64,000 nt of DNA from Streptomyces clavuligerus (GTDB taxonomy: Bacteria; Actinomycetota; Actinomycetes; Streptomycetales; Streptomycetaceae): NCBI RefSeq assembly GCF_005519465.1, contig NZ_CP027858.1:62001-126000 (forward strand), in the 5' to 3' direction. Below are positions 58,705 to 64,000 of the stretch, in pieces. The number at the start of each line of letters is the position of its first letter. Within the stretch, counting starts at the first letter, position 1. The notes below the pieces were generated by a model that worked only from the letters and a program-made list of their open reading frames with translations, was not told where the DNA came from and did not search any database. A program made the translations under genes and the position numbers.

Positions 58705-61700
58705 ATGAGGGACTTCGGGGGAGTGTCCAACTCGGCGGTCCGCGGCGAGAGTTGGCGGGTCCGGCTGTTCCGGCGGGAAGCCCGCACGGAGGGGCCGGTC
58801 GGGGCCGGGGTGCTGTTGCCGGGGGGTCTGGTGGTCACCTGTGCGGGGGTGGTGGCGCTCCGTCCGGCGGCGGAGGCGCCGTCGCGGGTGTACGCGGACT
58901 TCCCCGCCGCCGGAGGTCCGGGCGGGCGGCTGCTGCCCGCCGAGGTGCTGGCCGACCCCCACGGCGTGGACGGGGGTGTCACGGTGCTGCGGCTGACGGA
59001 GCCCGCGCCCGCGCGCCCCGTCCTGCTCCACCGGCAGTCCCCCGCGCCGCACGAACCGGTGCGGCTGGTCGGCTACCCCGGGGACCGGCCGGACGGCCGG
59101 GAGGTGCCCGCGCGGCTGCTGGAGCGCGACGGTCCCGGTGTCCGCCCCGCGTGGGTGCGCATCGCGCCGGACGCCGGGTCCGGCCCGCTCGGCCCCGGTT
59201 TCGCGGGCGGCGGCGTCGTCCACGGACGCACCGGCCGGGTCATCGGCATCCTGGCGCAGCCGCCCGGCGGGAGCGGCGACGGCGGGACGCACCGGATGAT
59301 CCCGACCGAGACCCTGCTGCGCCATCTCCCCGAGGCCGGGCGCGACCGGCTGGTCTCCGGGCACCGGGCCGTCTCCCGCACCATCCCGCCCACCTCCGGT
59401 CCACCGGACTCCCGGCGGGCGCGCGGGCTGCGGCACACGGTGACCGCCTGGTTGGACGGCGGGACGGCCCCGGGCCCCGGGCGGGTCAGGGACCCGGTGG
59501 AGCTGGCCTTCGCCGGTGACGACGACCAGGACGCGCTGTCCGTGCTGCACGCGACGCTCAACCTCGCCGACCGGGAACGCGCCCCGGGCACCGGGGAGGG
59601 CACCCGCGCCCCCGTCCCGCAGGCGGGGTCGATCGACCTCGCCGTGGAGGTCAGCGGCCGGACCGTCGCGGAGCTGGTCGCCCATACGGCGGGCCGCACC
59701 GGGCTGGACGACGGCGCCCCGGGAGGGGACGGCGCGGAACCGGGGGCGGACGGCCGGGGCCCAGCCCGGGCGACGGAGGGCCCGGCCCCCGGACGGGACA
59801 GCTCGGGAACGGAAGCGGACGGCCCCGCTCCCCCCACGGCGGGCACGGAAACCGACGCCCTGCTGGAGCGGATCGCCGGGCACAGCCCGCCACTGTGCGC
59901 GGCCTTCCTCTCCGTCGACCGGGCCGCACCGGTGGGCGAGGCGGTCCTGCCCCTGCTGCACGCCCTGCTGAGACAGGGGCACAGCCGACTGCTGCTCACC
60001 TTCCGCGACCCGCGCTCCCCGCTGCTCGACCGGGTCGCCGGTGAACTGCTCGACCCCGGGTGGTCCGAGCGCCGCGCCCGGACCATCGCCGAGCGGCTGG
60101 ATGTCCTGACCTCCCTGGAACGGCGCAGCCGCCCCCCGGGCGACCGCGCCGACCGGGCCGCCGGACGGGGCCCCGCCGGAGCCGCCCGGAGGTCCGCCGG
60201 CGGGAGCGCGGACGGCGGCGGCGCCGACCGGCACACCGTCCGCCTCACCCCGCCCGCCTCCCGGCACCTCGCCGCCCGGCTCTCCGCGCTCCGGGGCGGC
60301 GGGCTGCGCAACAGCGCGGCCCTCTCGTACGAGCTGTTCCGGCTCCACAGCGAGGTCGAGGAGGCCGTGCACTCGTTCGACCCGGACGCCGCGCACCGGT
60401 ACACCGTGCTCCCGGCCGGTGACGGCCTCACCGACCTCCCCCAGGTGACGGTCGACAACCCGGACGACCTCGTGGACACCTCCCCCGACCCCGCCGCCCC
60501 GGACTCGGGGCTGACGCGCGGCCAGGAGCTGCACCAGCAGTACCGGGTGATCGGCCGGATCGGCCAGGGCAGCTTCGGCCGGGTGTATCTCGCCCGTGAC
60601 CAGATGCTGGAGAACCGGGCGGTCGCCCTCAAGGGGGTCCGCGACCCCGGCGACCCCGGCGCCGCCGAGACGGCCCTGCGGGAGCGGCTGCGGCTCATCG
60701 GGCTCAACCACCCGTCGATCATCAAGGTCTTCAACTACGCCCGCCACCCCGGCCATCCGCAGAACACCGCCATGTTCATCGTGATGGAGTTCGCCGACGG
60801 CGCGCCGCTCCAGTGGGTCGCCGACCAGATCAGGGACCGCGTCCCGCCCTTCCACGACGACCGGGTGCCCGAGTTCATCACGGTGTACGGGCTGCTCATC
60901 CTGAACGCGCTCACCCATCTCCACGAGAAGCGGCGGCTCGTCTACGGCGACCTCTCCCTCACCAACGTGATCCACTGCGGCGGCGGGATCAAACTCATCG
61001 ACGTGGCCGGGGTACGGGAGATCGGCGCGCCGGGGCCGGTCACCTATCCGGCACCCGAGCTGCGGTACTCCAACCGGATGACGGTCGCCGCCGATCTGTA
61101 CGCCGTCGGCGCGGTGCTCCGGCAGCTCTTCGACCTGGCGCCGAAGGCGCCCTCGCCCCGGCGGCCCGACTCCCTGGAGCGGGCGGTGGCCCGGGCCATG
61201 GCGGACCTGCCCGAGGCCCGGTTCGCCTCGGCGGCGGAGATGGCGCTCCAGCTCCGGGGCGTCCTGCGGGAGCTGCGTTCGCTGCGGCTCGGCAAGGAGC
61301 ACTTCGAACCCTCGCCGCTCTTCATCCCCACGCCCGCCGCCCTCGACGGCGAACTCGGCCGGGCCCCGGCCCTCGTCCAGTGGCGGACCGGGGGCAATGC
61401 CAAACGCCGGCTGACCTTCCGGCCCCCGGAGCCCTCGGCCGTGGCCTGCGGGCTGCCGGTGCCGAAACCGGACGAGAACGACCGCAACTGGACCATGCTC
61501 CAGCGCACCTCGTACGACGACCCGGTCGGCCTGCTCCAGCTCAGCGGTGCCTGGGACGAGTCCCCCGAGCGCTCGCTGCTGCGCTGCCGACTCCATCTGG
61601 ACATCGCCGGGCACCGGCCCGAGGAGTCGGCGCAGCGGTGCGCGGAGGCCGAGCGGGAACTCGCCCGGGCCCGCTCGGCGATCGGGGCCCTGGCCGGACA

Positions 61701-62592
61701 CGACTGGCGGCTGCACTGGCACCAGGGGCTGCTGCGGCTCTTCCGCGGCGATCTGGCCGGGGCGCTGACCTCGTTCGACCGGGTGTACGCGGCGATCCCC
61801 GGCGAGTACGCGCCCAAACTGGCGCTGGGGTACTGCCATGAGCGGCTCGACCGGCCGAAGACGGCCGAGACGCTGTACCAGGCGGTGTGGCAGCGCAATC
61901 GCGCGCTCGGCGGGGCCGCCTTCGGGCTCGCCCGCATCCATCTGCTGGCCGGGCGGGCGGCGGACGCCCTCACCTGTCTGCGGGCCGTCCCGGCGGACTC
62001 GCGGCACCGCACGGCGGCGCGGACGGCCGTGGTGCGCATCCTCGCGGACCCGCCCGCCGACGGCTCCCCGCCCTCCCCCGAGGAGGCGTGCCGCGCCTGG
62101 GTCGCCCTGCACCGGCTCACCCGCAGGGAGGGGCTGACCGACCAGTTGGCGGAGCAGCGGCTCGGCGCCGATCTGCTGGAGCTGCTGCTCCTGCTGGTCC
62201 CCGCCGCCGGTCCGCGCCCCCGTGCGCGGACGGCGGCCGGGCGGCGGGCACGGCCGCCCGGGGACCGGCGGGACCCGGGCGGCGGGGACCCGCTGGAGAC
62301 GCTGCGCGCGCACCTCGCCGAGCTGCCCGAGGACGTCCCCGCCCCGGCCTCCGAGCGCGAGCTGCGCGAACAGCTCGCGGCCTGCTATCTGCGGCTGTAC
62401 GAGCAGGTGCCGCCCGGCTCCGGCGACGAGGACCGCGCACTGGCCGAGGCGCTGGTCGACAACGCGTATCTGACCCGGCCGTTCGGCTTCCGCCACCGGC
62501 GGAGCGACGAGGCGCCCCGGGGGCTGTTCGACCGCCGGGCGCGGGGCCGGTCCGCCGGTGGGGGCGACAGCGCGCGGGGCGGGGCCCGGTGA
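58705..62592 (+). CDS. Trypsin-like domain fused to PknG-like kinase and TPR region
   Basis: Large multidomain protein of 1295 residues. Residues about 20-215 have a trypsin-like fold (GAGVLLPGGLVVTCAGVVA, GPGFAGGGVVHG), but His, Asp and Ser are replaced (Gly48, Gly91, Ala167), so it is likely non-catalytic. A linker (about 220-600) has a helical part. The kinase lies at about 612-840, with Gly-loop GQGSFGRVYLA and Lys 643. The catalytic loop is YGDLSLTN, where D749 and N754 are kept but the usual Lys is Ser751, and DVAG replaces DFG/DLG. A PknG-like TPR region follows (about 930-1120). Two downstream genes complete the PknG-GlnX-GlnH-like module. ATG 58705 lacks a strong ribosome site; GTG 58722 is possible. 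Confidence 0.85.
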   Translation: MRDFGGVSNSAVRGESWRVRLFRREARTEGPVGAGVLLPGGLVVTCAGVVALRPAAEAPSRVYADFPAAGGPGGRLLPAEVLADPHGVDGGVTVLRLTEPAPARPVLLHRQSPAPHEPVRLVGYPGDRPDGREVPARLLERDGPGVRPAWVRIAPDAGSGPLGPGFAGGGVVHGRTGRVIGILAQPPGGSGDGGTHRMIPTETLLRHLPEAGRDRLVSGHRAVSRTIPPTSGPPDSRRARGLRHTVTAWLDGGTAPGPGRVRDPVELAFAGDDDQDALSVLHATLNLADRERAPGTGEGTRAPVPQAGSIDLAVEVSGRTVAELVAHTAGRTGLDDGAPGGDGAEPGADGRGPARATEGPAPGRDSSGTEADGPAPPTAGTETDALLERIAGHSPPLCAAFLSVDRAAPVGEAVLPLLHALLRQGHSRLLLTFRDPRSPLLDRVAGELLDPGWSERRARTIAERLDVLTSLERRSRPPGDRADRAAGRGPAGAARRSAGGSADGGGADRHTVRLTPPASRHLAARLSALRGGGLRNSAALSYELFRLHSEVEEAVHSFDPDAAHRYTVLPAGDGLTDLPQVTVDNPDDLVDTSPDPAAPDSGLTRGQELHQQYRVIGRIGQGSFGRVYLARDQMLENRAVALKGVRDPGDPGAAETALRERLRLIGLNHPSIIKVFNYARHPGHPQNTAMFIVMEFADGAPLQWVADQIRDRVPPFHDDRVPEFITVYGLLILNALTHLHEKRRLVYGDLSLTNVIHCGGGIKLIDVAGVREIGAPGPVTYPAPELRYSNRMTVAADLYAVGAVLRQLFDLAPKAPSPRRPDSLERAVARAMADLPEARFASAAEMALQLRGVLRELRSLRLGKEHFEPSPLFIPTPAALDGELGRAPALVQWRTGGNAKRRLTFRPPEPSAVACGLPVPKPDENDRNWTMLQRTSYDDPVGLLQLSGAWDESPERSLLRCRLHLDIAGHRPEESAQRCAEAERELARARSAIGALAGHDWRLHWHQGLLRLFRGDLAGALTSFDRVYAAIPGEYAPKLALGYCHERLDRPKTAETLYQAVWQRNRALGGAAFGLARIHLLAGRAADALTCLRAVPADSRHRTAARTAVVRILADPPADGSPPSPEEACRAWVALHRLTRREGLTDQLAEQRLGADLLELLLLLVPAAGPRPRARTAAGRRARPPGDRRDPGGGDPLETLRAHLAELPEDVPAPASERELREQLAACYLRLYEQVPPGSGDEDRALAEALVDNAYLTRPFGFRHRRSDEAPRGLFDRRARGRSAGGGDSARGGAR

Positions 62593-63764
62593 GCGGGGCC
62601 GCGGGGCGGACCCCCGCGGGCGGGACGCGCGGACGGTGGTGGCGGCGGGCCCCGCGGGCCTGCTGGCTGCCCCTGTGGCACTGGGCCTCGGGGCGCGCGG
62701 ACGGTGTCCGCAGGCCCACCGGGCCGTTCCTGATGACGCGGTCGGTCCTGCTGCCGGTGGTCGCCCTCACCGCGCTGGGCCTCGCGGCCGTCGCGCACTC
62801 CGTGCCCGCGGGCCGTACCGAACAGCTCCGCGACCGCCACGCGCCCGCCCTGGCGGAGCTGACCCGTACCCGGGTCTCGCTGACGCTGGCGCGGTACGAG
62901 GCGGAGCGGCGCCTCGGCGGGGTCGCCGGGCAGCCGCTGCGGCAGACCGCTCTCGTCGGGCTCGGCGAACGCTATCCCTCGCTGCTCGCGCAGGCCGCCC
63001 AGAGCCTCAACAACGCGGCGCAGACCGGGGCGCTGCGCCGCTCGCAGGAGCAGGAGATCCGGGTGGTGTCGGGTCTGGTCGTCGCCTACGACGGCTTGAT
63101 CGACTGGGCGAACGACCAGCAGAACAGCGACGGGCTGCGCCGGGCCGGGCTCGCGTACGCGGCCGGTCTGCTGGGCGACGGCCGGGGCCCCGAGGGCTCC
63201 ACGGCCGTGCTCGACCGCTTGCGGACCCTGGAGCGCGAGCTGCGCGCGGACGCCGCCCGGCGGTCGGGGTGGAGCGCCCTCACCGCGGGCACGGCCCTGG
63301 CCGCCGTGGTGGCGGCGCTGCTCTTCGTCCTCCTCGTCGTCGGCACCCTGGCCTTTCTGCGGCGGCGGATCCGGGTGCACAGCCTGCCGCTCGCCGGGTG
63401 CGCGGCGCCGGTGCTGCTGGTGCTCGCCCTGCTGGGGTTCGGGACGGCGGGCCAGCACCGCTCGCAGCAGTACATCGGGCAGACCGTGGCCGCGCTGGCG
63501 CGGGTCTCGGCCGACCGGGACGCGGCCGACCGGGGTGCGGGCAACCGGATCAGGGACGAGATCGAGAGCCAGATCCTGGCCGAGCGGACGATCGCACGGG
63601 AGCGGGACCGGCTCGCGGTCCGGCTCGCGGACACCCATCCCCCGGGGTGGACCCGGTGGACGGCCCTGGCCCTGATACCGGGGGCGGCAGCCGCCCTGGC
63701 CTGCGGATACACCCTCTTCCACTACAACCGCAGACATCTGATGATCCGTAGGCGGACCCGATGA
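62589..63764 (+). CDS. Four-TM membrane protein, GlnX-like
   Basis: Integral membrane protein of 391 residues. TM helices: about 51-70 (LLPVVALTALGLAAVAHSV), about 232-258, about 268-290 and about 355-375, with a long helical extracytoplasmic domain (LAELTRTRVSLTLARYEAE, LNNAAQTGALRRSQEQE) between TM1 and TM2, and another between TM3 and TM4. This four-TM, two-loop pattern resembles mycobacterial GlnX, which links the lipoprotein GlnH to the kinase PknG. GTGA overlap with the kinase gene and ATGA overlap with the lipoprotein gene show a tight operon. No recognised enzyme motif. Confidence 0.75.
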   Translation: MSGAAGRTPAGGTRGRWWRRAPRACWLPLWHWASGRADGVRRPTGPFLMTRSVLLPVVALTALGLAAVAHSVPAGRTEQLRDRHAPALAELTRTRVSLTLARYEAERRLGGVAGQPLRQTALVGLGERYPSLLAQAAQSLNNAAQTGALRRSQEQEIRVVSGLVVAYDGLIDWANDQQNSDGLRRAGLAYAAGLLGDGRGPEGSTAVLDRLRTLERELRADAARRSGWSALTAGTALAAVVAALLFVLLVVGTLAFLRRRIRVHSLPLAGCAAPVLLVLALLGFGTAGQHRSQQYIGQTVAALARVSADRDAADRGAGNRIRDEIESQILAERTIARERDRLAVRLADTHPPGWTRWTALALIPGAAAALACGYTLFHYNRRHLMIRRRTR

Positions 63765-64000
63765 CGACACCGTCGACGGCCGTGGGCCGTGTGCTGCGTT
63801 CCCTGCTGGCCTGGTGTCTGCTCGCCCCGGCCGCGCTGCTCGCCGCGGGCTGCTCGGGCGGCCCCGGCGAGCGGACCCTGGTGGTCCTGGGCCCCTGGAC
63901 GGGCGGCGAGGAGAAGCCGTTCACGACCGTGCTCGCGCGGATCGGCGAGCGGACCGGGGTCCGTTACGCGTACGAGGGCACCCGCTCCCTGCGCGAGACG
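63761..64000 (+). CDS. Solute-binding lipoprotein, 3' end outside window
   Basis: The first 80 residues of an exported substrate-binding protein. A lipoprotein signal peptide (LLAWCLLAPAALLAAGC) ends at a lipobox with Cys at about 31, and then TLVVLGPWTGGEEKPF begins the mature protein, a start typical of extracellular solute-binding family 1. It overlaps the GlnX-like gene by ATGA. By analogy with GlnH it would be the ligand sensor feeding the PknG-like kinase, though its ligand family (sugar-type) looks different from the amino-acid type of GlnH. The window ends within the gene. Confidence 0.8.
   Translation, partial: MTTPSTAVGRVLRSLLAWCLLAPAALLAAGCSGGPGERTLVVLGPWTGGEEKPFTTVLARIGERTGVRYAYEGTRSLRET

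Follow-up and report, generated by a model that had tools for sequence, protein, structure and literature searches.

We analysed a window of 64,000 nucleotides from Streptomyces clavuligerus (contig NZ_CP027858.1, positions 62,001 to 126,000 of the forward strand), at the end of which three overlapping genes of the + strand encode a PknG-like Ser/Thr kinase, a GlnX-like membrane protein and a solute-binding protein (SBP) that is a lipoprotein of family 1, the carbohydrate type. At a probability of roughly 0.7, we read this trio as a second, paralogous PknG/GlnX-type sensory relay, with its input coming from a carbohydrate-type binding protein. The original prediction had placed the three reading frames at 58705, 62589 and 63761, and this is where they lie. 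First, the kinase gene (58705..62592, 1295 residues) ends in a four-base GTGA start/stop overlap (62589..62592) with the gene of the membrane protein. Second, the latter (62589..63764, 391 residues) ends in a four-base ATGA overlap (63761..63764) with the lipoprotein gene. Third, the lipoprotein gene is cut by the end of the window, which holds 63761..64000, and the genome sequence provides its complete frame of 424 residues, with the stop at 65035 (L009:7761-9035). Third-position G+C is 94-95% in each of the three genes.

With the SBP alignment as query, 183 related loci were found, 80 of which were analysed, namely, 79 from Streptomyces and one from Actinacidiphila. In all 80, the SBP gene has the membrane gene as its direct neighbour, with profile ends from 12 bases of overlap to 348 bases apart, and a PknG-type kinase is encoded upstream in 73. 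Because of this adjacency the arrangement, as seen in these sequences, is not due to chance, and lack of conservation in other Streptomyces, which had been named as one outcome that would speak against the module, is refuted. Among the seven loci without kinase, four start no more than 120 bases from a contig end and two have less than 1.6 kb upstream, leaving one unexplained; this locus (L121:1-8775) has the SBP and GlnX-like genes and 8.7 kb of upstream DNA, in which no PknG-like kinase was found.

The window module is not, however, the organism's own counterpart of the mycobacterial pknG/glnX/glnH genes, as its first description implied, since a canonical locus exists elsewhere in this genome of 8.54 Mb. 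At 4.58 Mb (L013, G000:C1:4572001-4588000) we found glnX, glnH, a coiled-coil gene, pknG and a PP2C phosphatase gene, in this order. The GlnX encoded there is the best match in the genome to Streptomyces GlnX (E 9.6e-120) and ends in NRRLAEYR, the binding protein belongs to family 3, and the PknG has rubredoxin (E 7.6e-29), kinase and TPR (tetratricopeptide repeat) regions. The coiled-coil protein resembles, in one comparison (E 1e-7), the C-terminal part of a separate trypsin protein from locus L101. The trio of the window is a second module beside this locus. Across 246 genomes of the genus, SBP relatives occur in 101 and canonical GlnX in 239 (both at E<=1e-20), and a single-protein search found relatives of the membrane protein in 48; judged from the SBP and GlnX counts, the module exists in addition to the canonical one, which was kept, and has not replaced it. 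The proposed likeness to the mycobacterial layout is thus upheld for the component families but not for gene order, which is kinase, membrane protein and SBP in the window versus glnX, glnH and pknG in two loci that, from their look, are presumably mycobacterial.

The kinase proved to be of the PknG type, as had been anticipated. Its Pkinase domain (residues 613-813, 60541..61143, E 8.4e-18) is followed, as in PknG, by a PknG TPR region (residues 908-1155, 61426..62169, PF16918 (PknG_TPR), E 1.4e-37), and the nearest solved structures are 7mxb_A (E 5e-47) and 2pzi_A, which is named PknG (E 1.8e-46). In place of rubredoxin, the N-terminus has a trypsin-like domain (Trypsin_2, residues 33-182, 58801..59250, E 2e-10), which we detected in 37 related loci out of 80; it is part of the kinase in 13 of them and encoded separately in 24. 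Named records of the fused form include S. rimosus and S. uncialis. A Pfam search of the window kinase gave no match to PknG_rubred, and in none of the 13 fused relatives do the 80 residues that precede the kinase domain contain a CxxC motif; L163, a distant member of the module, scores 28.4 bits for rubredoxin against a cut-off of 28.5. Rubredoxin is not strictly defining for PknG, because Corynebacteriaceae PknG is described as devoid of it (PMC6069109). Between the trypsin-like and kinase domains there is a conserved, unassigned domain (residues 216-600, 59350..60504, alignment A7), inside which neither Pfam nor NCBIfam gave a match. This domain recurs in the separate trypsin proteins of L163 and L101.

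The catalytic residues of PknG are also present in the window kinase, namely, Lys643 for ATP binding (VAIK motif), Asp749 (HRD), Asn754 and Asp766 (DFG). Among the 69 of 73 module kinases with a match longer than 450 residues, 68 have the ATP-binding Lys, with one gap, and all 69 have each of the other three; all four residues occur in each of nine comparison loci (eight canonical loci and L073). The catalytic-loop Lys, two residues past the HRD Asp, is replaced by Ser751 in the window. The same Ser occurs in all 13 fused relatives, which makes the change an old one, and Lys is kept in 24/24 loci with a separate trypsin gene and in 30/32 loci without trypsin match.

The four membrane-spanning segments attributed to the second protein are supported by a structural model (pLDDT, the predicted local distance difference test, 84.6; pTM, the predicted template modelling score, 0.77), which is helical save for a few residues and contains four long membrane helices, as expected of GlnX. 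In this model TM1 (TM, transmembrane helix) is continuous with the first of the four helices that make up an extracytoplasmic domain; TM2 and TM3 come next, and TM3 runs on into a two-helix extracytoplasmic hairpin that precedes TM4. For GlnX itself, a published model (PMC9769921, section 13) shows two four-helix bundles along with four TM segments. Therefore, the GlnX-like fold that had been foreseen is reproduced in the modelled membrane topology and first domain, but not in the second domain, predicted to be a hairpin rather than a bundle.

Profile comparisons place GlnX at a distance that is bridged by intermediates. Compared directly, the window's membrane family and GlnX match weakly (probability 5.7%, E 0.0067). 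Alignment A4, built from remote members of the module, matches both GlnX (97.9%, E 3.2e-13) and the window's membrane family (99.7%, E 2.9e-26), and the pooled family that includes the window protein matches GlnX at 96.0% (E 4.8e-9). When a profile of canonical GlnX only was run at E<=10 over the 80 loci (12,500 frames, 194 of them with at least three hydrophobic segments), all seven frames that it matched were module membrane genes, and the other 73 module membrane genes were unmatched. The reverse search, in 296 genomes of the class, returned 20 matches, for which 15 regions were fetched. In nine of these (L179-L183, L185-L188) the profile falls on a GlnX gene whose neighbour is of the GlnH type, and the stretch fetched also encodes a PknG-type kinase; five (L176-L178, L189, L190) have a family 1 SBP; and in L184 the profile was below the second threshold. 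A precomputed domain, PF28326.1, whose name and cut-off were unreadable, is common to 23 of 36 relatives (the window's own protein not being one of them) and to 120/120 among the matches listed. We conclude that the membrane protein is a remote homologue of GlnX, linked to it through intermediates. Canonical GlnX ends in RLSEYR or similar, and the C-terminal EY pair is present in 20/24 loci with separate trypsin and in 37/43 without trypsin, but in 0/13 fused loci.

The assignment of the lipoprotein to the sugar-type family 1, and not to the amino-acid family 3, was borne out. Its lipobox reads LAAGC, with the Cys at residue 31. All 12 members of alignment A3 match SBP_bac_1 at E<=0.01 (six also SBP_bac_11 and four also SBP_bac_8), and none of the 12 matches SBP_bac_3, the family of GlnH, at that threshold. 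The window protein itself matches SBP_bac_1 weakly (E 0.0026, 18.2 bits, below the cut-off of 26 bits), and the SBPs of two relatives that were examined closer, with 28.5 and 26.5 bits, are above it. Canonical GlnH from the same genome and from L066 matches SBP_bac_3 (E 8.8e-28 and 1.1e-28, respectively). The modelled structure of an SBP homologue with 67% identity comes nearest to sugar receptors, AcbH (3oo6, 13% identity) first, which we take to be specific for galactose and to come from an Actinoplanes host. By its sequence, and by the predicted fold of this homologue, the lipoprotein is thus a family 1, carbohydrate-type SBP, and its ligand would be a sugar or an oligosaccharide. In distant SBPs of the module (L150, L153-L164, e.g. 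L154:9899-11113), inspection by eye revealed no lipobox Cys and an apparent N-terminal membrane-helix anchor.

AcbH is filed as the binding protein of an ATP-binding cassette (ABC) transporter, whereas the window SBP is encoded together with a GlnX-like protein and a kinase. That the lipoprotein is an ordinary uptake protein, whose proximity to the kinase is incidental or a matter of co-regulation only, is the least probable of the alternatives that we considered: the modelled fold does match receptors of ABC importers, but the SBP adjoins a GlnX-like gene in 80/80 loci, overlaps it by four bases in the window, and no ABC permease was seen by eye, without family search, among the open reading frames beside the window operon (the neighbours in other loci were clustered by sequence only).

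The alternative that survives best comes from the trypsin-like domain. The window has lost three out of three catalytic residues of the protease, the triad positions being Gly48, Gly91 and Ala167, and its trypsin-like domain can, on this evidence, only have a binding or regulatory role. The 37 relatives retain Asp and Ser in 37/37 and His in 36/37, with one gap in L152. Beside the trypsin gene, in 31 of these 37 loci, there is a small divergent gene that is Trypco2-like (PF19631, E 3.3e-28 on one member). Such a gene was found in 0/43 loci without trypsin, where the upstream DNA is long enough for a judgement in only 26, and the Trypco2 profile gave no match in the window or L009. L148, which retains the triad with no Trypco2 seen, is an exception to the pairing. 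Also, in 28 of the 73 kinase-bearing loci, a gene that matches vWA families lies between the kinase and membrane genes.

Since trypsin-Trypco pairs are known from conflict systems (PMC7159879), these loci could represent a derived, defence-like conflict system. Its work would be done by protease, Trypco2, vWA and kinase, and what the SBP and membrane protein detect would be an invader or damage to the cell envelope rather than a nutrient. The pairing and the vWA gene would agree with this, as would PADLOC kinase models that match the kinase domain (PD-T4-6, E 1.2e-20; mad6, E 4e-19). The likeness includes a trypsin-like domain joined to, or beside, a signalling protein, and the Trypco2 neighbour of the relatives. 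However, the active triad with a neighbouring Trypco gene that marks such modules is found in most trypsin-bearing relatives but not in the window, where the domain is tied to a PknG/GlnX/SBP sensor. In relatives, the trypsin-like domain begins 1.6-2.6 kb before the kinase domain. A stretch of 5.5 kb or more precedes the kinase domain in 26 of the 43 loci that lack a trypsin match, and the other 17 are shortened by a contig end (10) or have no kinase (seven). Trypsin is therefore missing from 26 of the 63 loci that can be judged, and the SBP-membrane pair is kept in all 80. The PADLOC matches sit on the kinase domain, save for one PglW match that extends slightly upstream, no PADLOC model matched the membrane protein or the SBP, and the SBP fold, as modelled in the homologue, is that of a nutrient receptor. 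We consider this alternative unlikely. The main text of PMC7159879 includes neither 'pkng' nor 'solute-binding'.

The same losses may be read as decay of the window copy, with signalling ended, if the absence of triad and Trypco2 (the latter unmatched also in L009) is taken together with a kinase that, with Ser for the catalytic-loop Lys, is possibly inactive. We find this highly improbable: the three overlapping frames are intact, with the third-position G+C already mentioned; the ATP-binding Lys and both catalytic Asp are retained; Ser in place of this Lys is common to all 13 fused relatives, and hence old; and L074 keeps 68% identity in the SBP and 76% in the kinase.

A tree of 54 kinases places the window kinase in a group of nine (support 100/99), made up of the sampled fused forms plus L098 and L099, whose contigs start too near the kinase for the trypsin domain to be judged. 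The kinase nearest to that of the window is L148, with 75% identity. A branch (100/100) sets the canonical PknGs apart, together with L178, a kinase linked to a family 1 SBP. L178 pairs with canonical-type L188 (100/100), whose stretch holds a GlnH-type gene; both are from outside Streptomyces and long-branched. On this grouping, there may have been more than one exchange of the sensor.

As for the surroundings of the trio, the gene 5' of the kinase is divergent and the next gene read 3' of the lipoprotein is on the opposite strand. A tandem-like repeat, GTGHRAP in one frame, is found shortly downstream of the lipoprotein gene (L009:9410-10204).

The second sensory relay that we favour would work as follows. 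The lipoprotein (63761 onward) would bind a sugar or oligosaccharide and, once loaded, dock on the GlnX-like protein (62589-63764) at its domain of extracytoplasmic helices, the first of which is modelled as continuous with a membrane helix. The change would pass to the short cytoplasmic ends of this protein, which would activate the kinase by contact with its TPR region; in the case of GlnX, PMC6069109 suggests that its short ends would suit the TPR region of PknG. The kinase would then phosphorylate a cytoplasmic target, for which the first candidate is the GarA homologue of this genome, located at 5.95 Mb and carrying an ETTS motif (E 4.7e-48 to GarA). The trypsin-like domain would derive from a protease that, in relatives, has an intact triad and, in most cases, Trypco2 beside it. 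The same wiring may thus report a different nutrient, as the original prediction proposed.

Among known systems, the closest is the PknG-GlnX-GlnH-OdhI/GarA relay described for Corynebacterium and Mycobacterium (PMC9769921, PMC6069109), with which the window shares a kinase with PknG TPR, a four-TM relay protein with an extracytoplasmic helix bundle, an SBP lipoprotein, their union in one operon and, in the genome, a GarA homologue. It differs from that relay in its family 1 SBP versus a family 3 GlnH, in gene order, in the trypsin-like and unassigned domains that the kinase has instead of rubredoxin, in the modelled hairpin, and in the canonical locus that coexists in the genome. Among Ser/Thr kinases linked to SBPs, PMC6069109 names S. 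griseus SGR_4432 and S. coelicolor SCO1468. These linked kinase and SBP genes of Streptomyces may belong to the module of the window; SCO1468 is mentioned nowhere beyond PMC6069109 in the open-licence literature searched. The combination of a PknG/GlnX-type kinase, a family 1 SBP and trypsin/Trypco2 is undescribed in the titles and abstract openings of those papers of that literature that matched our searches.

What we describe is a variant of a known relay, well conserved and with an unexpected protease history, whose mechanism beyond gene content we infer. On a broader hypothesis, to which we would give even odds, PknG/GlnX is a swappable transmembrane chassis, with an amino-acid version that is near-universal in Streptomyces and a carbohydrate version, present in about two fifths of the sampled species, that was built together with a conflict cassette of protease, Trypco2 and vWA; in the lineage of the window, the protease would have been fused to the kinase first and then become a pseudoprotease regulator. 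The module would also tie a conflict-system protease pair to nutrient sensing, and the loss of this pair in the window's lineage makes the order of events testable. What activates bacterial Ser/Thr kinases is called an open question in PMC6069109 (abstract), and few relays have, like PknG/GlnX/GlnH, a named input. If our reading is true, one cell would house two versions with different types of receptor, evidence that the membrane relay is modular, and Streptomyces could link sugars outside the cell directly to protein phosphorylation, possibly at the 2-oxoglutarate node via GarA.

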